Source of the DNA: Deltaproteobacteria bacterium
Lineage (GTDB): Bacteria > Desulfobacterota > Desulfobaccia > Desulfobaccales > 0-14-0-80-60-11
Length of the DNA stretch: 64,000 bases
Assembly: GCA_030018495.1 (NCBI GenBank)
Contig: JASEFS010000008.1
Location: 53,781-117,780 of the forward strand
Direction of reading: 5' to 3'
In this document: positions 35,818-60,398 of the stretch, piece after piece
How the letters are laid out: each line of letters begins with the position of its first letter
Position numbering within the stretch: position 1 is the first letter of the stretch
Translations under genes and position numbers: made by a program
The notes under the pieces: model-generated
Told to the model about the DNA's origin: nothing
Databases searched by the model: none
The model's input: the letters and a program-made list of their open reading frames with translations, nothing else

Positions 35818-36136
35818 GGGGTGACCCCCCTTTTCTCCCAGGTTAGCTTAACCATAAAGCAGCCCGGGTTACGAAAAGGTTACAAAAAGAATTCTCCCCA
35901 TCTCCGGCTAACATTGAATAATATTTACTATATTTGAGAGGTCGCAGTTAAACGGGGGCAATTCAGGGAAAAAATAATTGCCCCTACGCCAATGTTTCAC
36001 TTGAAAGCGAATGCCAAGTCCTGTTTCCCAAAAGAAGCCGGGAATCACTTGACACTAAACTGCACCACAGGTAACTTCTTAATTACCGGTCAATTCATTG
36101 TTTTTCAGCAAAGCCGATCCTTTTAAGGTGGCAGGG

Positions 36137-39100
36137 ATGCAGCCGTCAGTGCACATCGCCAAAATCATCCCGCCTCAGGTTCCTCAAATACTCCCTCGCC
36201 CGCGCCTGATTAATAGCCTGCAGCAGCAAGAAGACAAAAAACTTATCCTGATATTGGGACAGGCGGCCCAGGGCAAGTCCACCCTGGCGGTGTCTTACGT
36301 CAACGCCTCTCCGGTGCCTTCGGCCTGGGTCAATCTCGGCCCCGAGGACACCGATGCGGTGACTTTGTTTTATCTGCTCGGGCACGCCTTGCAGCGGATC
36401 TTGCCAAAGGCGGATTTTTCCGCCGCCCTGTCCTATCCGGCCGTCGCCATGGGCCCCCGGGAGGAAGGGCCTCTTTACCGGAATTGGCTGGAGGCCCTCC
36501 TGGATCGGGTCCCCGGCAGGGTTAACATTATCCTGGACGGCCTGGACCGGCTCAGCCCCGGGGCTTCGGCTTTCCGGCTTTTACAGGCACTCCTGGCCGT
36601 GTTGCCCTCCAAATGCCGCTTGTTTATTCTCTCCCGGGAAATGCCGCCGGTGGATATCAGAAATCTGGCGGAGCACCAGGAGGTCTTCCGGCTGAACAAC
36701 GCGGATTTGGCCTTTAATCTCAGCGAAACCACCAAATACTTCCACACCATCCGCAACTTTCACCTGTCCGCCGGGTTGATTCAGCGCATTCACAGCCTCA
36801 CGGAAGGCTGGATCGGCGGCTTGGTGCTTTTCTGCGACTCCCTGGACTGGGTCCCGGAAAGCCAGCGGGAACGATACGTTTCCCAGGAACTGGCGGGGAA
36901 ATTTATCTGGAACATCTTCCATTACTTCGGCGAGCGGATATTCTCCCTGGTGCCTCGGGAAGTGCAGGAATTCCTTATCAAAACTTCCATCCTGGAGGTG
37001 GTGGAGCCTGATTTCGTCAAGGACGCTATGGGCCTTGACAGCCCGGAAGCCATCCTGGAGGAGTTGGTAAAGCGGAACCTCTTTGTGCAGCCCATTTACG
37101 ATAAAAAGAAGGGATTTTCCTACCGGTATCATCCGCTCTTCAAAGAATTTTTGCAGGGTAAATTCCAGACTTTGATGGCCCGGGAGCACCAAGCGGATTC
37201 TTATTATAACGCCGCGTCCCTGTCCGAGCGCCGCGAGGATTTGGAGGCCGCGGTGCGCTATTATCTCAAGGCGCAGGCTTACCCCGAAGCCGCCCAAGCC
37301 ATTGAGCGGGCCGGCCTGGAACTGGTGCGCCTGGGTAAAACCTCGGAACTGGCCCAATGGCTGGCGGCCCTGCCCGCGGACTTGGTGCGGCGAAAACCCT
37401 GGCTCCTCTTCTACCACTATATGACCGGGCGATTTCAAGGGTCCGAGGAGCATCTGGCGAGCCTTCAGGAAGCGTACGCGCTCTTTGCCGAGCAGGCGCA
37501 GACGCAGGGACTTCTTCTGTGCCTGGCGTATTTTTTGGAAACTTCCTTTTCCAGGGGCCGCCAGGCAATCCCCTCGGTTCACACTTTGCTGGCCCAGGCT
37601 GAGGCTCTGGTGGAGTCTCCGGCGGCGCGCGCCTTTCCCCTGGAGCAAGCCATTCTCTGGTGCCAGATAGGCTTTGCGCATTTTCTCCGCACCGGCAATT
37701 CCCGCAAAGGTGTATGGGCCTGTCAAAATGCTTACCTCTTGGCCCGGGATTTAGGCATCATTCCGCTGCAGTTCAGCGCCCTGGCCTACAGCCTGGGATG
37801 TCTCGCGTTTTTGGGGGAGTTCCAGCGGGCCGAGGAGGTCATCAGTGAGGCCCAGAAGTTGTGGGACAAATGCCCTCATCCAGAATTGCGCGCCGTCTAC
37901 TATGTTAATTTATGCAACTACCTATGGCTCAAAGAAGATTTTGCGGCCGCGGCGGCCGCCCTGGGCCAGGCGCAAGAAGCCGCTACGCAGCATGGCCTCA
38001 CCCATCTTCAGCATGTGGTGCTGCTGTACGATCTTGTTTTGAAAATCTACCAGGGGGATTTTCGCGCCGCGGAAGAGGTCGGCATCGGCTTGGCCGGTTT
38101 ACTGTTTTCGGCGGGCAATATGGTCATGTACGGCAGCGCCATGTTTCACCTGGGACTCGGCTATTACCGCCGGGCAGATTACCGCAAGGCCCGTGAGCAT
38201 TGCGCCCGCGCCGCGGAGATTCTCTCGTCCCACGAGGGCCAGTCCGATTTCTACCTGTTTATGGTCAAAATTATTTCGAGTCTGGCGGCTCTTCACTTGG
38301 GAGAAGACGCGGAAGTCGAGCAGGGCTTGGCAGAGGCCCACGCCCATTTTCAAGACATCGAATCCCATATATTTTTAAAAGAATCCCACTTGGCCCTGGC
38401 CCTGTGGAAATGGCGGCAAGGTGACACCGCCAGGGCCCGGGACCATTTGGAGGCCGGCCTGAAAATCGCCCAGGATCGGGACTTTTACCTGAACCTGTTG
38501 CTAAACCGCAAGGACATGCTCAGGGTCTGTACGCTGGCCCTGGAACTGGAGGCCGCGGCTGTCTGGGATTATGCCTCCCGCTGCCTCAGCCGTTGCCTGC
38601 CTGATTTGGCCGATGCCGAGCTCGCCCGGCTGGCCCGGCATCACAACCGGGAAATCGCCGACAAGGCCTGGGAAATACGGAAAACCATTCACCGGGCCAA
38701 CCTTCCCAGACTGCGCTTCCAGACCCTGGGAGGCTTCCGCTTCTGGCGGGGCGAGGTGCTGGTGGATGACAAGGAATGGGAGGGGCATCAGCCCCAACTG
38801 CTGCTCAAGGCCATCATCGGCCGCGGCTCCAAGGGGGTCCCCAAGGACGTCCTCATGGAAGACCTCTGGCCCGAAGCCCCTCCTGACCTGACGGAAAAAA
38901 ACTTCAAAGTCAACCTCCACCGCCTGCGCAAAGTCCTGGAGCCGGTCATGAACAAGACCTACGGGTCTTCCTATGTCCATCTCAAGGCAAACCTCATCTC
39001 CCTTGACCCGGAACTCTGCCATCTGGATATTGATGATTTTCTCTCGGCTTTGAGAGAGGCCGAGAGGGAGGAGGAGCAGGGCAACGCCAAACAGGCCGTT

Positions 39101-39502
39101 TCTCTATACCAGCGGGCCGCGGAATTGTACGGCGGGCCTTTTTTGGCAGAGGAGTTGTACCACTCCTGGGCGGAGGCCAAAAGAGAGGAATTGCAGGGGA
39201 AATATCTGGAGCTCCTGCACCGGCTGGCCAAACTGTACGAGGCTCGGGGCTCCGTGCTCAAGGCCATCGACTGCTGGAAGCAGGTGATCCAGACCGACCC
39301 CCTGGCCGAGGGGGCCAGCCGGAACCTGATGCTCCTTTACGCCAAAAGGGGCATGCGCAACGCCGCGCTCAGGGTTTATGAAGAGTGCCGGCAAGCCCTG
39401 CAGGAAATGTTGAACGCCGAGCCTGAGGAAGCAACCACGGCCATTTACCGGAAAATTCAGGAAAGCGCCGCCAAGTCAAAACCCGCCGGGCCGGGGGCGT
39501 GA
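36137..39502 (+). CDS. MalT/SARP-type STAND transcriptional regulator with C-terminal winged helix and BTAD
   Basis: P-loop LILGQAAQGKSTLAVSYV, long helical repeat region, winged helix LRFQTLGGFRFWRGEVLVDDKEWEGHQPQLLLKAIIGRG...LWPEAPPDLTEKNFKVNLHRLRKVLEP, then a BTAD-like TPR domain. Confidence 0.88.
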   Translation: MQPSVHIAKIIPPQVPQILPRPRLINSLQQQEDKKLILILGQAAQGKSTLAVSYVNASPVPSAWVNLGPEDTDAVTLFYLLGHALQRILPKADFSAALSYPAVAMGPREEGPLYRNWLEALLDRVPGRVNIILDGLDRLSPGASAFRLLQALLAVLPSKCRLFILSREMPPVDIRNLAEHQEVFRLNNADLAFNLSETTKYFHTIRNFHLSAGLIQRIHSLTEGWIGGLVLFCDSLDWVPESQRERYVSQELAGKFIWNIFHYFGERIFSLVPREVQEFLIKTSILEVVEPDFVKDAMGLDSPEAILEELVKRNLFVQPIYDKKKGFSYRYHPLFKEFLQGKFQTLMAREHQADSYYNAASLSERREDLEAAVRYYLKAQAYPEAAQAIERAGLELVRLGKTSELAQWLAALPADLVRRKPWLLFYHYMTGRFQGSEEHLASLQEAYALFAEQAQTQGLLLCLAYFLETSFSRGRQAIPSVHTLLAQAEALVESPAARAFPLEQAILWCQIGFAHFLRTGNSRKGVWACQNAYLLARDLGIIPLQFSALAYSLGCLAFLGEFQRAEEVISEAQKLWDKCPHPELRAVYYVNLCNYLWLKEDFAAAAAALGQAQEAATQHGLTHLQHVVLLYDLVLKIYQGDFRAAEEVGIGLAGLLFSAGNMVMYGSAMFHLGLGYYRRADYRKAREHCARAAEILSSHEGQSDFYLFMVKIISSLAALHLGEDAEVEQGLAEAHAHFQDIESHIFLKESHLALALWKWRQGDTARARDHLEAGLKIAQDRDFYLNLLLNRKDMLRVCTLALELEAAAVWDYASRCLSRCLPDLADAELARLARHHNREIADKAWEIRKTIHRANLPRLRFQTLGGFRFWRGEVLVDDKEWEGHQPQLLLKAIIGRGSKGVPKDVLMEDLWPEAPPDLTEKNFKVNLHRLRKVLEPVMNKTYGSSYVHLKANLISLDPELCHLDIDDFLSALREAEREEEQGNAKQAVSLYQRAAELYGGPFLAEELYHSWAEAKREELQGKYLELLHRLAKLYEARGSVLKAIDCWKQVIQTDPLAEGASRNLMLLYAKRGMRNAALRVYEECRQALQEMLNAEPEEATTAIYRKIQESAAKSKPAGPGA

Positions 39503-45749: not shown

Positions 45750-46904
45750 CTACCTGGGTCTCTTCCAAAAAGGCAGCCGCAGGAAATGCAGGGAAGAGGG
45801 AACCAGGGCCAGTTCTTTGGTTGTGCGCCGCCAGAAATAGGCCACCAATATTAGAAACAGGAGGTTGGGAAGCCAGGGGGCCAAGGCCGGATTGAGCCGT
45901 CCCTGAACGCCGAGGCGCCAGGAAGCGGTGAAAATTACATAATAAATAAGGAACACGGCGAGGCCCATAATAAGACCCCAAACGCGTCCGTGCTGCTCCG
46001 GGCTCATGCCTAAGGGCACCGCCAGCAGGCAGAGCAGAAAAGCCCCTATCGGCATGGCGAAGCGCTGGTTCAGTTCCACCCTGACGCGGTTATGCTCCTG
46101 CGTGCCGGGCTTAGTGCTCCCGAAAGATTGAACCAGCTCAGCCAGCGTCATTTCTTTTTCAGATTTGCTTTCCTTAAGATTGAGATCAAAAAGGTTCACC
46201 GGCAGCTTGTAGTTCTTGAATTCCACTGTTTGCTGGCGGTGGGCGTCCGGGCTCCAGCGGATCACCCGGCCTTCATTAAGTTGAAGCACCAGGGCCTCCT
46301 GGCCCTGGTCATAGTCCAGCTTGCCGTACTTTGCATATATGGTATGAGGATTTTCCCGGTCCCGCTTGTCGTAGATGAAAATGCCGTCCATCTCTCCCCG
46401 GGGGCCGGCGACCTTGTGAACATAGATCATCAGGCCCGGAAAATCCTTGTTGAAGGTTTGCTCTTGTATGCCCAGATCGGCGCGGCGCTTGACTACATCA
46501 GTCAAAAGCAGTTGGGTCTGATGCCGGGCCCAGGGGGCCCCGTAAACCGTCAGGAATAAAGTCGCCGCCGACGCAGCCAGGGCAAACGCCAGGACAGGCC
46601 GCATGAGCTGGGAAAAACTCAATCCTGAGGATTTCATGGCAATAATTTCCATATCCACGCTCAAGCGGATCAACCCCAGGATAATCCCCACTGTGGCCGC
46701 CATGGGCAGGGTGAAGACCAAAAGGTACGGCAGCAGATAAAAGCAAGCCCGCACGATTTCCGTAAATCCCACGCCCCTCACCACAATCATCTCGGCCAGG
46801 CGCACCACCCTGCCGGAAAAGACGATGATGGTGAATCCCAAAAGACTTACGGCAAAAGGATGGAGAATTTCCAATATGAGGTAACGGGAGAGGATACGCG
46901 ACAT
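45750..46904 (-). CDS. lptF: LptF/LptG-family permease
   Basis: MSRILSRYLILEILHPFAVSLLGFTIIVFSGRVVRLAEMIVVRGVGFTEIVRACFYLLPYLLVFTLPMAATVGIILGLIRLSVDMEIIAMKSSGLS. Confidence 0.92.
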   Translation of the reverse strand: MSRILSRYLILEILHPFAVSLLGFTIIVFSGRVVRLAEMIVVRGVGFTEIVRACFYLLPYLLVFTLPMAATVGIILGLIRLSVDMEIIAMKSSGLSFSQLMRPVLAFALAASAATLFLTVYGAPWARHQTQLLLTDVVKRRADLGIQEQTFNKDFPGLMIYVHKVAGPRGEMDGIFIYDKRDRENPHTIYAKYGKLDYDQGQEALVLQLNEGRVIRWSPDAHRQQTVEFKNYKLPVNLFDLNLKESKSEKEMTLAELVQSFGSTKPGTQEHNRVRVELNQRFAMPIGAFLLCLLAVPLGMSPEQHGRVWGLIMGLAVFLIYYVIFTASWRLGVQGRLNPALAPWLPNLLFLILVAYFWRRTTKELALVPSSLHFLRLPFWKRPR

Positions 46905-47243
46905 GGCGGCTGATTTTTCAGGTGTATTTATTTCCCTTATCTTATTATTTTCCTGCACATATTACCAAAAGACAACCTTTCCGACGCAGCGAGTTGCCAT
47001 TTCATCCGAAAAGCTATTCCTGGAGGTAAAACTCCTCTCTGTGCCGGAGACGGCACAATGCCCGCGCCTAAGGCAGCGGTTATCAGGACAAATTCGCCGC
47101 CCAAAGCAGGAATTTTTTTCTGGTGAAAGACCGATGCCAAGTTTAATAACATAATTTTAATAATAATTTTAATTAGTTGAACTATGGCCCAATGGTTGCA
47201 CCGGAGCAGCCGGGAACTACGCAAGCATAACAGGAGGGCTTTT

Positions 47244-48494
47244 ATGGGCTCCTTGTCCCTGGCTGCACCCCAATTGCCCGCAACCATTGACCCCGGGCCG
47301 CAATCTCCACCGGTGCAGGAATGGAATCCCGGCAAACGCTGGAACCCGTTCAACAGCCACAAGCTCCTGGCTCATGTGCCGAGATGGCGTCAAATCAGGC
47401 GCAGCCGGCCTTTGCCGCCGCCGGTGCTGGTGACCGTGGACCCCACCAATCTCTGCAACCTGAATTGCGTCTGGTGCAACGCCGCTTTCATACGGGCCCA
47501 ACGCCACAATTCCCTGTCCGCCGAGGCGCTGATGCACCTGGCCGACTTTTTGCCCCGCTGGGGAGAGGGCCAGACAGCCTGGCCACCGGGGGTGGAGGCC
47601 GTGTGCGTGGCCGGCGGGGGCGAACCCCTGTTGAATCCCGCCACCGCCGGGTTTATCGACCGGCTGAATCACCACGGCATTCAAACGGGGCTGGTCACCA
47701 ACGGCACCAAGATCCTGGACTATGTCGATCCCCTCTCCCAGTGCACCTGGATAGGGGTCTCCATCGACGCGGGCACTGCCGCCACCTTCAATGACTTAAA
47801 ACGGCTGAACCCTCAATCCCGCGTGTTCGAGAACCTCATCGAGCACATCGCCATCCTGGTGGATTACGCCAGGTCGCATCATAAACGCCTGGGCTCGGTG
47901 CACCCGTCTTACGGGGTCAGCTACAAGTACCTTCTCTACAACCGGAACAATATCGAGGAAATGTATCGGGCCGCCTGCCTGGCCAAGGAAATCGGCTGCA
48001 AAAACATCCACTTCCGGCCCGCGGGCACACCCTGGGACAAAATCGGCACCGCGGAGGAAATCCTGTTTTCCCGGGAACTCATCGAACTTTATCAGGACCA
48101 AATCCGGCAAACCCTGGAGTTGGACGACGGCGCGTTCAGCGTTTACGGCGTCACCCATAAATTCAATTCTCAGTTTGGCCGGGCCAATTATTTTAAACGG
48201 TGCCACGCCGTGTTCATGACCGCGGTCATTGAGCCGCCCGCCGACCAGGAGGCCCCGGAAGACTCCTTCATTCTGGGCCTCTGCTGCGACCGCCGGGGGG
48301 ACGACAAGCTGGAACTGCTGAACAATTCCACCGACCCGGAAGACATCAATCGAATCTGGGGAAGTCAAACCCATTGGCGCATCCATGACCGCATCAGAGT
48401 GCGGGAGGAATGTCCCCGCTGCACCTATCAGCCTCACAACGAAATTTACGAGGAAGTGATTCTCAACGACAGCATGACTTACAGGTTTATCTGA
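47244..48494 (+). CDS. Radical SAM protein with C-terminal Cys-rich region
   Basis: AGGAGG before ATG 47244; TVDPTNLCNLNCVWCNAAFI (CxxxCxxC), CVAGGGEPLLNP; C-terminal LCCDRRG and ECPRCTYQPHNEIYE. Confidence 0.9.
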   Translation: MGSLSLAAPQLPATIDPGPQSPPVQEWNPGKRWNPFNSHKLLAHVPRWRQIRRSRPLPPPVLVTVDPTNLCNLNCVWCNAAFIRAQRHNSLSAEALMHLADFLPRWGEGQTAWPPGVEAVCVAGGGEPLLNPATAGFIDRLNHHGIQTGLVTNGTKILDYVDPLSQCTWIGVSIDAGTAATFNDLKRLNPQSRVFENLIEHIAILVDYARSHHKRLGSVHPSYGVSYKYLLYNRNNIEEMYRAACLAKEIGCKNIHFRPAGTPWDKIGTAEEILFSRELIELYQDQIRQTLELDDGAFSVYGVTHKFNSQFGRANYFKRCHAVFMTAVIEPPADQEAPEDSFILGLCCDRRGDDKLELLNNSTDPEDINRIWGSQTHWRIHDRIRVREECPRCTYQPHNEIYEEVILNDSMTYRFI

Positions 48495-48506
48495 GGAAAA
48501 GCAATC

Positions 48507-49931
48507 ATGCGCATCGGCGTGTTCGGCCTGGGCAAGTTGGGGCTCTGCTCCGCGGCCTGCTTTGCCGCCAAAGGCCATCAGGTGGTGGGCTTCGACAGCA
48601 ACCCTGAGCACCTGGCGGCGCTCATGGCCGGGGCCTGTCCCATCCGGGAAACCGGACTTGAGGAACTGCTGGCCCTTGCCCGACCCAATTTTACGGTCAC
48701 GGACGCCCCCGACGCCATGGTGCAGGAAACGGACTTTTCTTTTATCATTGTCCCCACTCCCAGCCGGTCGGACGGCAGGTTTGAGAACCATGCCATAGAA
48801 GAGGTGCTTGCCGTTATCGGCCCGGCCTTGCGAGGAAAAAACGACTTTCACGTGGTGAACATCGTCTCCACGGTCATGCCCGGGTCCTGTGAGGGCTCCT
48901 TCCAACCCGTCCTGGAGCGGCTTTCCGGCAAAAACTGCGGCACGGACTTCGGTCTGGCCTACAACCCGGAATTTATCGCTTTGGGTGCGGTGATTGACAA
49001 TTTCCTGAACCCCGATTTGGTGCTCATCGGCGCCTCGGACGAGCGCACGGGCAGGCTGCTGACCGGGCTTTACCGCTCCACCTGCGACAATGAGCCCCGC
49101 TTGGCGGTCATGTCTCTCATCAATGCCGAGATCACCAAACTGAGTTTGAATTGCTTCGTAACCATGAAAATCAGCTTCGCCAATGAGTTGGCCGCAATCT
49201 GCGAAAAAATTCCCGGTGCCGACGCCGCGGTGATAACCGCGGCATTGGGAGAGGACAGCCGCATCGGCCCCAAATGCCTGAAAAGCGGGCTGGGTTTCGG
49301 GGGGCCGTGCTTCCCCAGAGACAACCTGGCCTTCCAGGCCTTCGCCCAGGAGGCGGGGTGGGAGGCCTGCCTGGCTCCCCAGGTGGTGCGCCTCAACCAC
49401 CTGGTCACGGAGCGTCTCCTTAGCCTGATCAGCCGGCACCTCAATCCTCCCGCCCGGGTGGCGCTTCTGGGCCTGGCTTACAAGCCGGACACCCACATTG
49501 TGGAGGAATCCCAATCCCTGCACCTGGCCCGAAAGCTCATGGCCGCAGGGTTCGCGGTGAGGCTGCACGACCCCCTGGCCTTGGACGAAGCCCGGGCCGT
49601 TTTGGGAGAAGGACCGGCCTATTGCCGTAATGCCTGTGATTGTCTCAGACAGACCGACGCGGTGGCGCTCCTGACCAACTGGCCCCATTATGCCGGGCTC
49701 GATTGGGAAAGGATGCATTTCCCGGACGGCCACCATCCTTTACTGGTGGATTGCTGGGGGATTCTCAAGGGGCGTTGCCTGCCGAACTTCCGGTATTTTT
49801 CCCTGGGTTTGGGTCCCCGCCACCCGGTGATCGGACCTCCCCTCCTGACCGGCGATAATCCCAAGTTGACTTTAATAAAACCACACCGGGAGGATGGGGC
49901 GGCCTGGGGCTGTCGAGGAATTAGCCGATGA
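48507..49931 (+). CDS. UDP-glucose/GDP-mannose dehydrogenase family protein
   Basis: MRIGVFGLGKLGLCSAACFAAKGHQVVGFDSN; catalytic region GLGFGGPCFPRDNLAF; LLGLAYKPDTHIVEESQSL. Confidence 0.92.
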   Translation: MRIGVFGLGKLGLCSAACFAAKGHQVVGFDSNPEHLAALMAGACPIRETGLEELLALARPNFTVTDAPDAMVQETDFSFIIVPTPSRSDGRFENHAIEEVLAVIGPALRGKNDFHVVNIVSTVMPGSCEGSFQPVLERLSGKNCGTDFGLAYNPEFIALGAVIDNFLNPDLVLIGASDERTGRLLTGLYRSTCDNEPRLAVMSLINAEITKLSLNCFVTMKISFANELAAICEKIPGADAAVITAALGEDSRIGPKCLKSGLGFGGPCFPRDNLAFQAFAQEAGWEACLAPQVVRLNHLVTERLLSLISRHLNPPARVALLGLAYKPDTHIVEESQSLHLARKLMAAGFAVRLHDPLALDEARAVLGEGPAYCRNACDCLRQTDAVALLTNWPHYAGLDWERMHFPDGHHPLLVDCWGILKGRCLPNFRYFSLGLGPRHPVIGPPLLTGDNPKLTLIKPHREDGAAWGCRGISR

Positions 49932-49944
49932 TTTGGGGGAGACT

Positions 49945-52900
49945 GTGAAAAATTTTCTTTTGGTCAATCCGACCTTCGGGGTGCGCCATCCGCCCTTGGG
50001 GCTGGGCTATCTGGCCGGCTATCTGAAGAAATATTATCCCGGCGGCCATCGCTTCCGTCTAATAGATTACGCCTGGCAGACCGACCGGGACCTGAATGCC
50101 GCGCTAAGCGATTTTCCGCCGGACCTCATCGGCATCACGGCCACCACCAACACCTTCCCGGAGGCCAGGCGCATCGCCGCCCTCATCAAGACCAGGTGCG
50201 CGGCGCCCATTATTATCGGCGGCGTGCACATCACCGCGATGCCCGAGGATCTTCTGGGTTCGCCCTTTGATTTGGCGGTGCTGGGTGAGGGCGAAGAAAC
50301 CTTGCTCAGGGTGGTGGAGCACTTCGACCGGACCGGCGGGGTTCATAATGAACAAATCAACGGCTTGGCTTTTCAATCCGGCGACCGATTGGTGCAGACG
50401 CCGCCCCGGCCCCTGATAGACAACCTGGACCACATCCCCATGCCGGACTATAACCTCTTCGCCATGCGGGATTTCTATACCCGCCCCAAGGCCCTGGCCC
50501 ACGGTTTCTACGCCAAGGGCGCCAGCCTCATGCCCTCCCGGGGCTGCCCTTACGGAGATTGCAGCTTCTGCGGCAGCGGCCTCATGTGGCGGCGCCGGGT
50601 GCGGTTTTTTTCACCCCAGCGGGTCTTCGAGGAAATTCGTTTTTTAATTAATACCTTTGGTCTTAACAGCGTTATTTTTTTGGATGACAACTTCACCACA
50701 AAAAGGGCCTGGCTGGAGGAATTGGCGGCCCTCATCAGCGCCGGCGATTTTTACCCCTTCTTTAAATTCGACTGTGAGTCCATTGCCGAGTATTTGGACG
50801 ATCACAAGGCCCGCCTGCTCAAAAGCATGGGTTGCGAGCGGGTGGAATTCGGCTTCGAATCCGGCTGTCAGCGGATCTTGTCCGAACTGAAAAACCAGCG
50901 GGCCGACGTGGCCAAAAGCATCGCCGCCATAGAACTCTGCAAAAAACACGGCCTCAAAATTTTGGGCAACTTCATCTTCGGCTGGCCGGATGAAACCAGG
51001 GCGGAAGTTCTCGAGACCTATGACTTTATTCAGAAACACCCTATTGATTACGTGGCCTGGCACACTTTGGCGCCCTACCCCGGCACCCGCGTATGGCGGC
51101 TCTGGGAAGAAAAATTTGCTCAAGGCCCTCTCCCCTTCCGCCGGGAGGACTTTTACCACGCCGAAACCTGCAACACCCATTTTGCCTTAAATCCCTATAT
51201 TGACCCGGCCCAGGCCAAAGACATCTATGAGAAAATGCGCCGCCAGGCTTACCTGAGCAACACCCAGGTGGTGCATGAATTGAACCTGACCGCCGGCGAG
51301 CGGGAGGAATTGTGGCAGGCCTTTTGGCAGGATATGGAGCGCCTCAACCTGCGTAAACCCTCAGTCTCCCTGACCAAGCCAAATACCCCGGAAAAACTCA
51401 AAGAACTCAGACAAAGCCGGGAATCGCCTTCCGAGGATTCCCTGGAGTTTATGTGCCGCCGTCTGGAAGGCGAGCCGGAGCTCTCCACCGCCGATATTAT
51501 GGCTGAATTCGACCTCCTGACCGGCCATCCCTGGGAGCATCACACCCAATCTCCGGTCACGAACTATTATGCCTGCCTTTACGGCCTGGCCAGGTCCAGC
51601 CGTCCTTCAAAAATTTTGGAAATCGGCACCGGCTTTGGCCTGAGCGCCGCGGCCCTGCTGAAGGCCAGCCATAATCTCGAACTCCTGGTGAGCCTCGATT
51701 TGGGCATCTTCGGCGACCAGTACGGGTTCGGCGAAAACAACCAGGCCTTTGCCCGGCGCAGGATTCATCATTGGTGCGCCGCTCAGGGCATCCCGGTGGA
51801 GCGCGTAAAATTTTTCCAGGCCAACACCCAGCCGCCGGGCAGGACTGATAATGACAATGTTGAGTGTCAGGCCCCACATTGGAGCGAAATCGCAGACCTT
51901 AAGGAACTGTTGACGCCGGCAAGTTTTGACCTGGTCTTTGTGGATGGGAAGCATACCGAAGACGGCCTCTATAATGACCTGAAGACCTTCTGGCCTTTCC
52001 TCAAGCCGGGCGGCCTGCTCATCTGCGACGACCTGCATGACGAGAGTTACCGCGAAGTTTTCGCCTGGGCGGGCGACGCCCTGGCGTCCTTTGAAAAGTT
52101 CACCGGCGAATTTTCACCGGGCATCGAAGAACATTACATCTGGCCGTTTCCCCGGGTCCTGCCCCCGGGCCGGGAGGGCGTGAGGCCTTTCGGGATCATC
52201 CGGAAAAAGACGGCCGCATCGATGCCGGTCCAGCCGCCGGTCATCCCCCCGTCCTGCCGCGCTTGCCGTGAACAGCCGGATTTTGAGGCGCTTATCAGAA
52301 TCTTGGCCAGGCATCAACAGCGCCTTTATTACCGCGACCAGTCTCCAGCCGGTCTGGCCGCTCTGGTCAAACTGGCCGAAGCACATCAACCCACCAAAAT
52401 CGTCGAACTGGGGACCCTCTCCGGTTTGTCACTCAGGGCCTGGCTGGCCGCGGACACGCAGGCCGAGATTATCGCCGTCGACCTCTCTTTTGCGGCCCTG
52501 CAGCAAAGCTTGAAACCGGCTCCTCTGGACCTCTGCCGGGTGCGGCTGCTGGAGCGAAATATCCGGCAAACGGATTTCCGCCGGCTCTGGGAACCTGGGG
52601 ACCGAGTGCTCCTGTACCTGGATGCCCATGACCAGCCCGATGCTCCTATCATGGAGCACCTCCTGGAGCAGGCCTTGCCCATTCTGCCGGCCGGCAGTCT
52701 GGTGGTGGTGGACGACCTCTGGTACAGCCCGGAAACTTTAACGCCAGCAAATGCTAGGGCTTTCTTCCGCAATCGGGTTTTTCATGAAATCGATCCGCTC
52801 CAATGCTTTTCCGGTGCGTATGCCTCCTACTGGCAGGGCGGCTCTTTCATGGGCTTTGCCGAAGTCGGGCCGTTCATAGCGTGGGTCAATGCCCGTCGAA

Positions 52901-55323
52901 TCCCCTTGAATTTCCAGCGGGATCAAAAATGTGCCTCCTTTGAGTGGCCGGGCGATACCCTTGAATCAAAAACAGTGACAACGCCAAAGCAGGACCAGGT
53001 TCCCGCCATGAGCATCTCTTATCATCCCCTGGCGGATGTGGCGGTTATGACTTCCGGCACCCTGGCCTTCGATGCCCCAACCATAGCGGCCCTCAATCTG
53101 CACCAGGAGGCTGTAAAGGCGTACGGCCTGGGTAGTGTTCCCGACGCCCTGGCCTTCCTGGCCCAGGCCGCAACGCTGCCTCACCGCTTAAGCGGCCTCC
53201 GGTATGGTCAGGCAGTTTGCCTGGCGCGGCTGGGACGTTTTGAGGAGGCAACTGCCTCTCTGGAAGAAGAACTGCGTTTGCCATTCCCCCATGAATATAG
53301 CCTCAGGCTGTTAAGCGACCTGCGCGACCGGCTGAGCGAAGCAGAATCAGTTGGCCCTTTTAAAACCGCACATAATTCGCACTCCCCAGGCCTCACCATT
53401 TTCGCCTGTCCCAAGGCCTTTGCAGGCCATACCGCAATTATTCAAAGAAATGCCATTCTGAGTTGGACGAAGCTTAATCCCGCCCCGGAAATCATTCTTT
53501 TCGGCAATGATCCGGGAGTTGCCGATATCGCCGGGGAATTGGGGCTGCGCCATGTTGCCGAAGTGGACTTGAGCCAAGGGGGGACGCCGTTGGTGAGCAG
53601 TCTCTTGCGCCAGGGCCAGGAGTCGGCTTCCGGCGAGCTGCTGGCATACGTCAATGCCGACATCATCCTGGGTCCCGATTTTATGGACGCGGTGGCTGGA
53701 GCGAGCCGGCATTTCCAGAATTTTCTCATGATCGGCCGCCGCTGGGATGCGGATGTTAAAGACCCCTTGGAGTTCAATGAACCTGACTGGTGGAAGAAGC
53801 TTGTGGCACAGACGGCTGATTCGAGGACCTTGCACGCTGAAAGCGCGCTGGATTACTTCGTGTTTACCCGCAACCTGTGGCCCCAAATTCCGGAATTCGC
53901 GCTGGGGCGCACGGCCTGGGACAACTGGCTGGCAGCCCAGCCGCTGTTAAACGGCGTCCCGGTCGTCGACGCCACCCCCTATGTGACGGCCATCCACCAG
54001 AATCATGACTACAGCCACGTTCAAGGCGGCCACGCCGGAGCCTGGAAAGGCGAAGAGGCCGGCCGTAACCAGGACCTCGCCTGGACTTCACCTTTCCTGG
54101 CTTACAGTTCCCATGCCCCCTGGGAAGTGGCGGAATCAGGGGAAATTGCGGCCAGGGAGAGGCAGCAGCGCTTTCTGGCTTTGGGACGGGAAGGTCTGGC
54201 GATTCTTCGGGAGGGCCGACCGGGGCCGGCTTTGGACAGATTTGATGAAATGCTCAACCTGATGCCGGAAGGCATTCCTGGCCTCCAGTATGTGCGGGCC
54301 TTAGCATTGAATGAACTGGGCCGCCAGGAGGATGCCGTATCGGCTCTCCGGCAGGAGCTGGCCTCCCACTCCACCCACCGCCGGGCTCGGGAACTGCTGG
54401 CAGCCCTGGAAAACACCGGTCGGGAAAGTGCCGGGGGAAATCCCAAGATCAGTGTGGTTATCCCCACTCACAACCGGGCCCGTTATCTGCCGGAAGCCAT
54501 TCAGAGCGTTTTAAACCAGGGCTGCGACGACCTGGAAGTACTGGTGGTTGACGACGGCTCCACAGACGACACCCCTGAAGTCATGGCCGAAATGACCGAC
54601 CCCCGGGTGCGGTATCTTAGGAAGGAAAAAACCGGCGCCCCGGACACCCGCAACTGGGGCATCGCCAACGCCCGGGGGGAGTGGCTCCTGTGGTTGGATT
54701 CCGACGACACGCTTATGCCGGGATGGCTGTCCAAGTTGGCCGGCGTCCTTGCCGACGGCGACGGGGCGGATGTCTATTACGGCAATCTGGTGGTGGTCGA
54801 TGCCGCAGGTCAACCCCTCCGCACCTTGAGATACGAGGATTACGCCGATTCGGCGGACCTCCTTCTCGCCAGCCTCCTGCAAGGGAACCCCATCCCTCTA
54901 GGCGGGTCTCTCACGCGCGCCTCGCTGCTTAGGGAGGCGGGCGGCTTTGACACCGATTTCCCCCGCGCCCACGATTATGAATTGTGGAGCCGCTTGGTCC
55001 TGCAGGCCCGCTTCCGGCACATTAACAGACTGGCCTTGGCCTGGCGCTGGCACGACGGCAATATGTCATCCGGCTCGGTGACCCGGGACTTGTCCTACGA
55101 TGCCGAGATAGTCAAGCGCCTGCTCCGGCGGCATCCTTTGAAGGACTTTTTTCCTGACCTCGATTGGGAGGACTGGCCCCGGGCGCAGGCCCAGGCAGCC
55201 CGTCTCATAAGCGAGATCTTCCGGTGCCACGGGGATGAGGACGCGGCTCGGGAATGGCTTCAGGAAGCTGCCGGGCTTGCGGTTGAATCTCAAACCCAAC
55301 CGGAAGCTGCGGTCCATGGCTGA
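49945..55323 (+). CDS. Giant fusion: B12-binding radical SAM + two methyltransferase-like domains + TPR + GT-A-like domain + TPR + family 2 glycosyltransferase
   Basis: ~1792 aa from GTG 49945. LLVNPTFGVRHPPLGLGYLAGYLKK; SRGCPYGDCSFCGS; ILEIGTGFGLSAAALL (~51.6 kb); IVELGTLSGLSLRAWL (~52.4 kb); LLAYVNADIILGPDF; KISVVIPTHNRARYLPEAIQSVLNQ...VLVVDDGSTDDTPE (~54.45 kb). Confidence 0.88.
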   Translation: MKNFLLVNPTFGVRHPPLGLGYLAGYLKKYYPGGHRFRLIDYAWQTDRDLNAALSDFPPDLIGITATTNTFPEARRIAALIKTRCAAPIIIGGVHITAMPEDLLGSPFDLAVLGEGEETLLRVVEHFDRTGGVHNEQINGLAFQSGDRLVQTPPRPLIDNLDHIPMPDYNLFAMRDFYTRPKALAHGFYAKGASLMPSRGCPYGDCSFCGSGLMWRRRVRFFSPQRVFEEIRFLINTFGLNSVIFLDDNFTTKRAWLEELAALISAGDFYPFFKFDCESIAEYLDDHKARLLKSMGCERVEFGFESGCQRILSELKNQRADVAKSIAAIELCKKHGLKILGNFIFGWPDETRAEVLETYDFIQKHPIDYVAWHTLAPYPGTRVWRLWEEKFAQGPLPFRREDFYHAETCNTHFALNPYIDPAQAKDIYEKMRRQAYLSNTQVVHELNLTAGEREELWQAFWQDMERLNLRKPSVSLTKPNTPEKLKELRQSRESPSEDSLEFMCRRLEGEPELSTADIMAEFDLLTGHPWEHHTQSPVTNYYACLYGLARSSRPSKILEIGTGFGLSAAALLKASHNLELLVSLDLGIFGDQYGFGENNQAFARRRIHHWCAAQGIPVERVKFFQANTQPPGRTDNDNVECQAPHWSEIADLKELLTPASFDLVFVDGKHTEDGLYNDLKTFWPFLKPGGLLICDDLHDESYREVFAWAGDALASFEKFTGEFSPGIEEHYIWPFPRVLPPGREGVRPFGIIRKKTAASMPVQPPVIPPSCRACREQPDFEALIRILARHQQRLYYRDQSPAGLAALVKLAEAHQPTKIVELGTLSGLSLRAWLAADTQAEIIAVDLSFAALQQSLKPAPLDLCRVRLLERNIRQTDFRRLWEPGDRVLLYLDAHDQPDAPIMEHLLEQALPILPAGSLVVVDDLWYSPETLTPANARAFFRNRVFHEIDPLQCFSGAYASYWQGGSFMGFAEVGPFIAWVNARRIPLNFQRDQKCASFEWPGDTLESKTVTTPKQDQVPAMSISYHPLADVAVMTSGTLAFDAPTIAALNLHQEAVKAYGLGSVPDALAFLAQAATLPHRLSGLRYGQAVCLARLGRFEEATASLEEELRLPFPHEYSLRLLSDLRDRLSEAESVGPFKTAHNSHSPGLTIFACPKAFAGHTAIIQRNAILSWTKLNPAPEIILFGNDPGVADIAGELGLRHVAEVDLSQGGTPLVSSLLRQGQESASGELLAYVNADIILGPDFMDAVAGASRHFQNFLMIGRRWDADVKDPLEFNEPDWWKKLVAQTADSRTLHAESALDYFVFTRNLWPQIPEFALGRTAWDNWLAAQPLLNGVPVVDATPYVTAIHQNHDYSHVQGGHAGAWKGEEAGRNQDLAWTSPFLAYSSHAPWEVAESGEIAARERQQRFLALGREGLAILREGRPGPALDRFDEMLNLMPEGIPGLQYVRALALNELGRQEDAVSALRQELASHSTHRRARELLAALENTGRESAGGNPKISVVIPTHNRARYLPEAIQSVLNQGCDDLEVLVVDDGSTDDTPEVMAEMTDPRVRYLRKEKTGAPDTRNWGIANARGEWLLWLDSDDTLMPGWLSKLAGVLADGDGADVYYGNLVVVDAAGQPLRTLRYEDYADSADLLLASLLQGNPIPLGGSLTRASLLREAGGFDTDFPRAHDYELWSRLVLQARFRHINRLALAWRWHDGNMSSGSVTRDLSYDAEIVKRLLRRHPLKDFFPDLDWEDWPRAQAQAARLISEIFRCHGDEDAAREWLQEAAGLAVESQTQPEAAVHG

Positions 55324-57808
55324 AGCGTATCTTGTTAAGCTCAAACCGCGTCTTCGGCTTCTGTTGGTGGCCCATAAACTGCTAGGGTCAGCCCGGGCCG
55401 GCACGGAGAGCTATTGCCTGAGTCTGGGCCAGACCCTGGCAGATCTGGGGGTGGAGGTTGCCTTCTTGGCCCCCCAGGGGCCTCCCCTCCAAAGCAGACA
55501 GGAGGAAATTTCCTGGCAGCGGGGAGACCTGTCCGGCCTGCCCTTTTTCAGCTTTAACCGGATGAATCCGGATATTCTGGCGAGCCTCGAGCATCCCGGC
55601 TTTGAGGCGGCCTTTAAAAATGTCCTCAAACACCATCCTGTTGACCTGGTTCATTTCCATCACACCTATCTGAGTTCCATATCTCTTATCAATGTTGCCC
55701 GGGAAGCGGGGTTGCCGGTGGTGCTCACCCTGCACGACGCCTGGCTGCTCTGCCCCCGGCTGCATTTAATGACTGATCAAGGCCGGTGCTCCGGGCCGGA
55801 GTCGCCGGAGAAATGCGCCGCCTGTCTGGGACCTCTGGCATTGCCGGCCGCGCCGGAGAACCTGGCGGCGTTCCTGGCAAAGCGTCTGAGACTGATAAAG
55901 ACGCTGCTTCCCGGCTGCCGGGTTTTGGCCCCCTCCCGGTTCTTGCGCAACCTCCATTATGAATACGGACTGGCCCGCGGCGGGATCATCCATCAGCCCC
56001 TGGGGCTGAAGGAGATCGGTCCCCTTTTTCAGGAACAGACTGCCTTTCCCCCTAAATTTGTTTTTTTGGGCAATATCATCCCGGTCAAACGGGTGGACCT
56101 GGCCATCGCGGCCCTGGCGCCGTTGGCGGGCCGGGCTTCACTGGAAATCTGGGGTCAGCTTCCCTTCGATATGGAAAAGCAGTTTTTGGAGAGCATCTCC
56201 CCTTATCCCCATATCAGTTATTGCGGTTCCTATCAGCGGGAAGACCTGCCCAGGATTCTGGCCGGCGTGACCGCTACGCTCATCACCTCGGATTTTGAGA
56301 ACTATCCCCTGGTGGTGCGGGAGAGTCTGATGCTTAAGGTGCCGGTCATCGGCGCCCAGACCGGGGGCATTCCCGAAATCGTCGAGCATGGCAAAAACGG
56401 TCTTCTCTTCCGGCCGGGCGACGCCGAAGCATTGCGTCGACAGGTGGAGCGCCTCATCCAACGGCCCCAACTTGCGGAACGCCTCAAACACAATATCAAG
56501 CCGGTGAAGAGTATGCGCCGGGAGGCGGAAGAGCTCTTGGACCTTTACCGCAGTCTGGTTGTCAGAGGGCGCGCTGACCAATCTAATGATAAGGCTGGTT
56601 GTAAAAAGCAGACTTGCACAGCTTCGGCTCCTCTTCTCCCGCTCCCACGCGGCGGCTGCGCCGTTTCGGAGCACACCCCTTCCGGCCGCTGCTCCATCAT
56701 TATTCCGGTATTCAATAACCTGGAACTCACCAGAGCCTGTCTTCAATCCATCCGGGAAAACACAGAACTAGACTCTTATGAAATTATCGTGGTGGACAAC
56801 GGTTCGACGGACGGAACCAGGGACTTCTTGAAAAAAAATGAGGCCGCCGACCTGAGGCCTGTTCTAAACGAGGCCAACCTGGGTTTCGCCAAGGCTTCGA
56901 ATCAGGGTGCCCGGGCCGCTCAGAGCGACCTCCTGGTATTTCTCAACAACGACACCCTAACCACCTCCCGCTGGCTCAGCGAACTGACCGCAGCTGCGGC
57001 CAAAAGCAACAGAATCGCCGCAGTGGGAGCCAAACTTCTTTATCCCGACGACACCGTGCAGCACGCCGGCGTGGTTTTCAATGTTGAAAAGAAGGTCTTC
57101 CACATCTACCAGCACTTTCATCGAGACCACCCGGCGGTGAACAAGGAGAGACAGTTTCAATGCCTCACCGCGGCCTGCCTGCTGGTAAAGCGGGATGTTT
57201 TCTTTGAGGTAGGCTTATTTGACGAACGGTTTGTCAACGGCTTCGAGGACGTTGATCTCTGCCTCAAAATCGGCAACAAGGGTCTGACACTTCTTTATAA
57301 CCCCCGCAGCGTGGTTGTTCATCTGGAAAGCAAGACTCCGGGGCGGCACGCCAGGGAAAGGGAGAATGCCGAGCTCCTGGCCCACAGGTGGCTGCACCGC
57401 ATCATCCCGGACGCGGAGGCGTATTACGCCGCGGACGGCATCATCGTGCACCATATTCGCCAGGAAACCGGAGAGCCCACAGCCGTTATGTTTGACCGCA
57501 ATCCCAACCCTTTTTGGGAGGAAGCGGCGCGTCTTAAAGCCGCGGGCGAAATGGAGGCGGCCTGCGAGCACTATTTGCGGGCCTTGCGCTTCAATCCCTA
57601 CGATACCCGGAAATGGACTATAGGTGCGGAACTGGTGGATTTGCTGGAGCGACTCGGCAGGTCTCAGGAGGCGGCACTTCACCGCAACTGGCTGGCGCAA
57701 CTGCTGCCCGCGGTTTCTCAGACAAAGACGCTAAGACGCAAAATTATCAAGTTTTCCAAGCAAGGCTTGGAAAACGGTGACAACTTTCTTGCCGGTGACG
57801 GACCATAA
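55316..57808 (+). CDS. Fused GT4-type and GT2-type glycosyltransferase
   Basis: N-half: PVDLVHFHHTYLSSISLINVAREAGLPVVLTLHDAWLLCPR...PVIGAQTGGIPEIVEHGKNGLLF. C-half: CSIIIPVFNNLELTRACLQSIRENTELDSYEIIVVDNGSTDGTRDFL...VFLNNDTLTT. ATG overlaps the upstream stop. Confidence 0.9.
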   Translation: MAEAYLVKLKPRLRLLLVAHKLLGSARAGTESYCLSLGQTLADLGVEVAFLAPQGPPLQSRQEEISWQRGDLSGLPFFSFNRMNPDILASLEHPGFEAAFKNVLKHHPVDLVHFHHTYLSSISLINVAREAGLPVVLTLHDAWLLCPRLHLMTDQGRCSGPESPEKCAACLGPLALPAAPENLAAFLAKRLRLIKTLLPGCRVLAPSRFLRNLHYEYGLARGGIIHQPLGLKEIGPLFQEQTAFPPKFVFLGNIIPVKRVDLAIAALAPLAGRASLEIWGQLPFDMEKQFLESISPYPHISYCGSYQREDLPRILAGVTATLITSDFENYPLVVRESLMLKVPVIGAQTGGIPEIVEHGKNGLLFRPGDAEALRRQVERLIQRPQLAERLKHNIKPVKSMRREAEELLDLYRSLVVRGRADQSNDKAGCKKQTCTASAPLLPLPRGGCAVSEHTPSGRCSIIIPVFNNLELTRACLQSIRENTELDSYEIIVVDNGSTDGTRDFLKKNEAADLRPVLNEANLGFAKASNQGARAAQSDLLVFLNNDTLTTSRWLSELTAAAAKSNRIAAVGAKLLYPDDTVQHAGVVFNVEKKVFHIYQHFHRDHPAVNKERQFQCLTAACLLVKRDVFFEVGLFDERFVNGFEDVDLCLKIGNKGLTLLYNPRSVVVHLESKTPGRHARERENAELLAHRWLHRIIPDAEAYYAADGIIVHHIRQETGEPTAVMFDRNPNPFWEEAARLKAAGEMEAACEHYLRALRFNPYDTRKWTIGAELVDLLERLGRSQEAALHRNWLAQLLPAVSQTKTLRRKIIKFSKQGLENGDNFLAGDGP
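57723..57742 (+). repeat. Left copy of the repeat bracketing GxxExxY gene 2
   Basis: CAAAGACGCTAAGACGCAAA, matching CAAAGACGCTAAGAACGCGAAG at 58242-58263. Confidence 0.75.
57751..57775. repeat. Perfect 11-bp-stem hairpin
   Basis: GTTTTCCAAGC-aag-GCTTGGAAAAC, inside the 3' end of the glycosyltransferase ORF. Confidence 0.85.
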
Positions 57809-58340: not shown

Positions 58341-60398
58341 TTACTTGGCGAGCAAGGGCACGATCAACAAGGCCACGATGTTGACCACCTTGATCATTGG
58401 GTTGATGGCCGGGCCCGCAGTGTCTTTGTAGGGGTCGCCCACGGTGTCGCCGGTGACCGCAGCTTTGTGCGCATCGGAGCCCTTGCCGCCGTAGAGGCCG
58501 TCTTCGATGGCCTTCTTGGCGTTATCCCAGGCGCCGCCGCCGGAGGTCATGGAGATGGCCAGGAACAACCCGGTGACGATGGAGCCGATGAGCATGCCGC
58601 CAAGGGCGATGGGGCCGAGACCCGGGGTGAAGCCCACGATGATGGGGGACAGCACGGGAATCAAGGCCGGAACCATCATCTGGCGCAGCGCGCTCTTGGT
58701 GACGATGTCCACGCAGGTGCCGTATTCGGGTTTGCCGGTGCCTTCCATGATGCCGGGAATTTCGCGGAACTGGCGCCGCACTTCCTCGACCACGCCGCCC
58801 GCGGCCTTACCCACGGCTTCCATGCACAGGGCGCCGAAGTAGTAGGGCAGCAGGCCGCCGATGAACAGACCGGCCAGGACGCGAGGATCAGACAGGTCAA
58901 AGGTCATGGCGCCGGGGAAGGACCGGGAGTACTCAGCGAAAAGCACCAACGCGGCCAGACCGGCGGAGCCGATGGCATATCCTTTGGTAACCGCCTTGGT
59001 GGTGTTCCCCACGGCATCCAGAGGATCGGTGATGTTGCGGATCTCTTCCGGCAGCTCGGCCATTTCGGCGATACCGCCGGCGTTGTCGGTGATGGGCCCG
59101 TAAGAGTCAATGGCCACTACGATGCCGGTCATGGAGAGCAGGGCCACCGCAGTCAGGGCGATGGCATAGAGGCCGGTGCCGGGGCTCTCCAGGCCGCCTC
59201 CCAGTTTGAAGGAGAGGAGGATGGCCGCCACGATGACGATAACCGGGGCGCCGGTGGCCTTCATGGAGATGGCCAGACCCTGGATGACGTTGGTGCCGTG
59301 GCCGGTGGTGGAGGCCAGGGCGATGGACTTCACCGGGGCAAAGCTCTTGGAGGTGAAGTACTCGGTGATGGCCACGATGAGACCGGTCAGGGCCACACCG
59401 ATGACCGCCAGCAGGAAGACGTTAAAAGGAGGAATCACAAAGCCTGCACCCTTGGCAGCCTTGGCGGCCACGCCGGCCATGAACTTGTTGGCCAGGGGAT
59501 AGAAGGCGACAACAGCCAAAATGGCTGCCACGATCAGACCCTTGTAAAGGGCGCCCATGATGTATTCTGATTTGCCCAGTCTGACAAAATAGGTGCCGAT
59601 GACCGAGGCGATGATGGACACGCCGCCAATGACCAGCGGGAAGGTGATGGCGGGGGAGCCGGCGCCGTAAATGGTGTAGGCCAGGAGCATGGCGGCCACC
59701 ACGGTGACGACGTAAGTCTCATACAGGTCCGCGGCCATGCCGGCGCAGTCGCCCACATTGTCGCCGACGTTGTCAGCGATAACCGCGGGGTTCCGGGGGT
59801 CGTCTTCGGGGATGCCGGCTTCCACTTTGCCCACCAAGTCGGCGCCTACGTCCGCAGCCTTGGTGTAGATGCCGCCGCCCAACCGGGCAAAGACGGACAC
59901 CAGAGAACAACCGAAGCCCAGGCCCACCAAGGCGTGCATGGCTTCCTTGGGATCAACCGCCATGAGGAACTTGTAATAACCGGCTACGGAAAGCAGGGCC
60001 AGGCCTACAACCAGCAAGCCGGTGACCGAGCCGCCCCGGAAGGCCACTTTCAAGGCGTGCGCCATGCTGGTGAAGGCCGCCTGGGCCGTGCGCACGTTGC
60101 TCCGTACTGACACGTACATGCCCACATAGCCGGCCATGGCCGAACCGAAGGCGCCGATGACAAAGCCAATGGCGGTATACTTGCCCAAGCCGAACAGGAG
60201 AACGAAAATGACCGCGCCTACCATGGCCACCGTCTTATACTGCCGGTTCAAGAAGGCGTTGGCCCCTTCCCGCACCGCCGCGGAAATCTGCTGCATCCTT
60301 TCAGAGCCGGCATCCTGTTTCAACACCCAGGTGGTGGTGAACAGGCCGTAAGCCACGCCCACCGCGCCACAAAGCAACGCAAAACTCATAATATCCAT
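58341..60398 (-). CDS. hppA: Membrane-bound proton-translocating pyrophosphatase, K+-independent type
   Basis: 685 aa; [77 protein letters not shown] (Lys at the K+-independence position). Confidence 0.95.

Follow-up and report, generated by a model that had tools for sequence, protein, structure and literature searches.

A 1792-residue chain joining B12-radical SAM, methyltransferase, TPR and glycosyltransferase modules in a candidate surface-glycan island of a Desulfobaccales bacterium

We analyzed a 64,000-nucleotide stretch of DNA (hereafter the window) from a Desulfobaccales bacterium and found that a single forward-strand gene (49945..55323) encodes a 1792-residue protein in which a B12-binding domain, a radical SAM domain, two methyltransferases, a TPR block, a GT-A-fold glycosyltransferase, a second TPR block and a GT2 glycosyltransferase follow one another. 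This protein is part of a wider habit of giant fusions in its lineage, since other giants of its family and a protein of another family also fuse B12-radical SAM to GT2 modules; the two methyltransferases and the GT-A domain distinguish it. The series of shuffled giants is a larger finding than the single protein. We consider it fairly probable that the gene belongs to a variable surface-glycan island whose giant multi-enzymes evolve by module shuffling, and that its product glycosylates and O-methylates, with an additional radical step.

The fusion gene and its modules

The longest frame over the gene opens at ATG 49894 and would encode 1809 residues. We prefer GTG 49945, because a GGGGGAG ribosome-binding site stands ahead of it and it lies 13 bases past the stop of the upstream gene; judged from the sequence, this start fits better than the ATG, and it is also the start given in the original prediction. 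Counted from the GTG, the protein has 1792 residues up to a stop at 55323, and residue numbers in the Pfam output run 17 above this numbering. When the bases were shuffled 200 times, no stop-free run exceeded 322 codons, so a frame of this length cannot be due to chance. Third-position GC stays between 0.52 and 0.78 in every 300-base block of the gene, which therefore gives no sign of a frameshift. With its open frame, ribosome-binding site and uniform coding signal, the gene bears out the single polypeptide of about 1790 residues that had been predicted. The predicted domains and their order also held: Pfam confirmed the B12-binding, radical SAM, Methyltransf_24 and GT2 domains, relatives and AlphaFold models backed the second methyltransferase (MT2), TPR helices and the GT-A domain, and each catalytic module carries its expected motifs in a motif scan.

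The B12-binding domain (49945..50334; PF02310, E 3e-19) is without the DxHxxG motif and carries GGVHITAMPE, and the radical SAM domain follows at 50452..51129 (PF04055, E 6e-21). Both pass their Pfam gathering scores, with 69.3 against 32.1 bits and 75.7 against 29.5 bits, respectively. The cluster motif CPYGDCSFC (50545-50571, residues 201-209) has a CX4CX2C spacing, one residue longer than the usual CX3CX2C and also present in a relative at L066 (CPYAKCNFC). While the domain pair and the cluster-binding region are common to the B12-binding radical SAM enzymes BchE, HpnJ, AprD4 and TokK, the module differs from them in its fusion to transferases, in its motif spacing and in falling far under the equivalog cut-offs. 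All NCBIfam cut-offs for named B12-radical SAM equivalogs (BchE, HpnJ, KedN5 and others) were missed by far, the best score being 152 against 481 bits for BchE. Since the closest relatives of the module are only about 35% identical, its radical chemistry is not transferable from them, and the step need not be a methylation. The nearest PDB structures of the radical SAM part are AprD4 (6fd2) and TokK (7kdx), and on this comparison dehydration or epimerisation may be as compatible with the AprD4-like match as C-methylation. Both being antibiotic enzymes, they could also point to a protein that makes a small secreted molecule, aminoglycoside-like or lipid-linked-sugar-like, rather than a surface glycan. 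We regard this as very unlikely, as the alignment covers just about 200 residues with low identity, the island around the gene is without natural-product core genes, and the island of a relative (G007) carries nonulosonate genes.

The first methyltransferase (MT1; 51412..52239; ILEIGTGFG) is a class I enzyme of the Methyltransf_24 family (PF13578, E 9e-21), well over its gathering cut-off (75.2 vs 26.3 bits), and has no close relative among 395 genomes of the phylum. MT2 (52252..52944; IVELGTLSG) is CmcI/O-methyltransferase-like and stays under the gathering cut-off of PF04989, RMNT_CmcI (18.7 vs 23.2 bits, E 0.0016). A profile built from three of its members found SAM-dependent O-methyltransferases in the PDB (4ymg, E 7.5e-5), and its AlphaFold model shows an O-methyltransferase-like Rossmann fold with matches to Rv0187, TomG and COMT-like enzymes. 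TPR block 1 (53002..53319) is homologous to profile-supported TPRs of the relatives at L045 and L062 and is helical in the model, and TPR block 2 (54097..54414) is recognized by its 29% identity to block 1 over 106 residues.

Between the TPR blocks, the GT-A domain (53347..54084; YVNADIIL, which is DXD-like, GRTAWDNW and HQNHDY) was without a match in Pfam and in sequence searches of the PDB. An AlphaFold model built from seven sequences (pLDDT 82, pTM 0.81) was matched by Foldseek to TarP, K4CP, SpsA and GlfT2 with E values around 1e-7 and query-length TM scores of about 0.5-0.58. The modelled middle domain thus has a GT-A fold, and the DXD-like NADI, GRxAWDNW and HQNH are kept in most of its relatives. 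Elsewhere the domain is a gene of 310-345 residues, in several cases within polysaccharide-type clusters, and viral contigs carry it too, in some cases near phage head or portal genes. In three viral contigs a UDP-sugar dehydrogenase adjoins or sits near a stand-alone GT-A-domain gene (L075:4135-6759, L076:1-1394 and L077:3669-6774), an arrangement like that of the window's operon. The middle domain represents a GT-A family that Pfam does not cover and that bacteria and viral contigs have in common. A separate 36-kb viral contig (IMG/VR 3300008516_000636, L074:5038-11154) encodes a 2039-residue mosaic that combines the same GT-A domain with methyltransferase and GT2-like parts and two stretches of GT9, near dNMP-kinase and HslV-like phage genes.

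The C-terminal GT2 (54439..55239) matches PF00535 (E 2.5e-35) and has the DXD and the catalytic-base region (VDDGSTDD, LDSDD, RAHDYELW, WRWHDGNMS). It is 47% identical to a GT2 of the giant at L038. Its nearest solved relative is the K4 chondroitin polymerase of E. coli (K4CP, 2z86/2z87), best matched in its second GT module and itself among the fold matches of the GT-A domain; K4CP has two GT modules only, and its low identity to the window's GT2 cannot fix the donor sugar.

The island around the fusion gene

The fusion gene is the third of four same-direction genes with tiny gaps or overlaps, an operon-like run. Upstream lie a radical SAM gene (47184..48494, PF04055), with distant kin in the islands at L062, L079 and L095, and a nucleotide-sugar dehydrogenase of the UDP-glucose type (48507..49931, TIGR03026, 330 bits). 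Downstream, a GT4-GT2-TPR gene (55316..57808) has its likely ATG at 55316, overlapping the stop of the fusion gene, and its GT2-TPR part is a module common to the giants of the family. The run, all on the forward strand, is followed by a small PDDEXK_3 gene of the GxxExxY type. By synteny, the island is bordered on the left by a lptF/lptG-family gene (45750..46958, PF03739) and on the right by a gene (58341..60398) that we read as encoding an H+-pyrophosphatase (PPase), both on the reverse strand. In the 11-kb island we saw no gene for a polymerase, a flippase or an ABC exporter and no Wzm/Wzt locus, no tRNA or known RNA in the window marks an insertion, and a scan for promoters and terminators did no better than shuffles. 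We regard the 646-residue ORF at 47796-49736, which is antisense to the dehydrogenase and radical SAM genes, as a shadow ORF.

Fused relatives and giant mosaics

The core of the protein recurs as a fusion in other families. In AUK140, a MAG of another family of the phylum (G096/L045/L065), one polypeptide carries methyltransferase, FkbM, MT2, TPR, GT-A and methyltransferase modules in this order, with 58% identity to the window's protein in MT2, about 50% in GT-A and 44% over the whole shared block, and it adjoins a dehydrogenase 57% identical to that of the window. In SURF_34, from a third family (G187/L062/L063), a SPASM radical SAM domain is fused to MT2 and TPR, and another MAG, DeMMO2_3, encodes the same protein on one of its contigs. 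The window's MT2 is 58-61% identical to the fused domains of AUK140 and SURF_34, and a pattern scan of the genome collection recovered MT2 in three records only, AUK140, SURF_34 and DeMMO2_3. The GT-A domain is present in AUK140 (KKMEPIT-IFA...) and absent from SURF_34 (KKMEPIT-RIIKNGG), and this joint, read from the sequences, would represent a near-clean gain or loss of the GT-A module. The DeMMO2_3 contig (binned as Thermodesulfovibrionia; L064) is nearly identical to the SURF_34 contig (binned as Deltaproteobacteria; L063), and one of the two binnings is probably wrong.

The original prediction had allowed that relatives might encode these modules as separate genes, the long frame then being an assembly fusion. 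The first part was found for GT-A, a stand-alone gene in several genomes; assembly error was not, and MT2-TPR-GT-A is fused in AUK140. The stand-alone GT-A genes reflect module swapping rather than misassembly. Because MT2-TPR-GT-A is collinear in AUK140 and MT2-TPR in SURF_34, and because giants with B12-radical SAM and GT2 modules recur, we conclude that the fusion is biological. An assembly chimera or a missed frameshift joining separate genes would agree with the full architecture having been met in one assembly only, but it is extremely improbable given the uniform coding signal along the gene, the collinear homologous block in a single AUK140 polypeptide and the analogous giants in many assemblies of the same family. 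Searches with back-translated peptides found no exact relatives of the full protein in the genome or viral collections, and the MT1-MT2-GT-A block had no match in isolate phages and plasmids. A plasmid search with the full protein returned partial matches, of which the one match over two domains, in plasmid Smac51, proved to be separate genes.

Of the 22 family genomes searched, 13 carry the GT2-TPR module seen in the window's downstream gene, chiefly as part of ORFs 1300-1886 residues long, some of which are ended by contig edges. The giants have modules in common, at about 50-65% identity, in differing order and number. Six of them (G004, G011, G015, G016, G019 and G021) carry B12-binding and radical SAM domains and then GT2 modules in one chain, as does a 2770-residue protein of another family (G059). 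These six, of the form B12-radical SAM-GT2-GT2-GT2, are the same kind of fusion as the window's protein, and three of them (G004, G015 and G016) share its neighbourhood markers, but whereas the window's protein has two methyltransferases, none is listed for those that were scanned (Pfam at an E limit of 1e-8, run on all of the B12-radical SAM giants except that of G011). In a tree, the B12-radical SAM domains of the giants form one clade with 100/100 support, and the window's domain falls outside it. Since an AU test did not reject a single clade of the window's and the giants' domains (p-AU 0.445), we do not claim a separate origin for its fusion. A third kind is a radical SAM-TPR protein of G058, which in the tree falls within a group of stand-alone paralogues from that genome. 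Its locus (L066:1810-19044) spans 17 kb and has about nine frames matching B12-radical SAM; several are close paralogues, and one is joined to a long TPR array. In G025, a 1713-residue giant is followed by what reads as an IscB/RRXRR-HNH-like endonuclease gene (L038:14453-15391).

The content of the neighbourhood is variable as well. The lptF and PPase genes are neighbours in many relatives. Their gap is 1.9-2.8 kb in G022, G024, G025 and G008, holding one gene of the kind that adjoins lptF elsewhere where it was read (G022, G025 and G008). It widens to 21 kb in G012 and to about 18 kb in G007, with extra genes and giants of 1886 and 1671 residues, respectively, each with several GT2 and TPR modules. 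The order in G016 is lptF, one gene, a 1505-residue giant and PPase, and the giant of G004 sits between speE and lptF; overall, G001, G004, G007, G012 and G016 have giants next to lptF, PPase or speE.

The G007 island also encodes PseB, PseC, PseG and PseI over curated cut-offs, a pseudaminic-acid pathway. Pseudaminic acid often decorates flagellin. This, together with flagellin genes in the window's genome and, in the SURF_34 island, a DUF3880/Glyco_trans_1_2 protein whose Maf-like match is sub-threshold, would agree with modules that glycosylate a protein such as flagellin, an S-layer protein or pilin and not a polysaccharide or LPS. We regard protein as a possible but rather unlikely target: the genome's flagellin genes are on contigs C55, C35 and C48 and the island on C62, which led us to set a flagellin link aside, and the proximity of lptF, which may be incidental, points to LPS if anything.

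Proposed function and relation to known fusions

The content of the operon and of the same neighbourhood in relatives supports a role in glycan assembly, in keeping with the assembly line originally predicted. We propose that the protein works in the cytoplasm as a multi-enzyme encoded in a variable surface-glycan island. A donor of UDP-uronate type would come from the neighbouring dehydrogenase. Sugars would be transferred by the GT-A and GT2 modules to an acceptor linked to lipid or protein, and one or both methyltransferases would then O-methylate sugars of the glycan, perhaps capping its end. A radical step on a sugar or nucleotide sugar, either C-methylation or dehydration/epimerisation, may fall to the B12-radical SAM module. 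The TPR blocks would probably serve as spacers between modules and may also dock partner GTs, and the protein would be one of many lineage-specific mosaics arising from module swaps in one chromosomal neighbourhood.

Substrates may also be channelled in cis from module to module. Instead, the fusion might be a convenience of co-expression, its modules serving different glycans or steps with no hand-over, as could be expected of modules that are freely swapped and, for GT-A and B12-radical SAM, are separate genes elsewhere. We think this somewhat unlikely, because giant fusions are common in the family, which suggests that the linkage is useful.

Proteins with several GTs, and fusions of GTs to methyltransferases, are already known. 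A064R of the chlorovirus PBCV-1 (GT-GT-methyltransferase, 638 residues) transfers two rhamnoses and afterwards methylates the last of them at O-2 (PMC9614988). Like the window's protein, it combines two GTs with a SAM methyltransferase in a single chain, and it builds and O-methylates a glycan end; unlike it, A064R is viral, a third of the size, without B12-radical SAM and TPR modules and with one methyltransferase, and its order of sugars is known. In ORF6 of Klebsiella pneumoniae O7, a terminating methyltransferase-kinase is joined to two GT2 modules (PMC11231755). It resembles our protein in having a methyltransferase on the N-terminal side, a spacer and two GT modules on the C-terminal side. 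O7 ORF6 and WbdD-type terminators have a kinase and a coiled-coil ruler, with no radical SAM described, whereas the spacers here are TPR blocks, seen as TPR helices where modelled. Pfam found no kinase in the fusion protein, although an unannotated kinase such as that of O7 could escape it.

These comparisons also bear on the order of reactions. The protein had been thought to methylate and then glycosylate, but domain order does not give reaction order. Since A064R and O7 ORF6, the two most thoroughly studied comparators, glycosylate first and then methylate the end, addition of sugars followed by O-methylation is expected by analogy, the reverse of the earlier view. Full-text searches of open-access papers turned up no account of a B12-radical SAM enzyme fused to glycosyltransferases. 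Within this literature, the apparent novelty is a B12-radical SAM module built into the same chain as glycosyltransferases and methyltransferases.

More speculatively, the giants of the family could be modular glycan assembly lines that join B12 radical chemistry to glycosyltransferases and methyltransferases, with cassette swaps rewriting the surface glycan from strain to strain and module order partly predicting glycan structure; we consider this reading doubtful as a whole. The recurrent giants form a natural module-swap series in one neighbourhood, which makes the relation of module order to glycan structure testable.

Two further genes were noted. The genome carries a second H+-pyrophosphatase gene on another contig (G000:C44:9102-11018), 81% identical to that at 58341. 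Elsewhere in the window, an ORF of 1134 residues (36098-39502) combines NACHT/AAA, TPR and BTAD domains, as in large signalling ATPase-type regulators.
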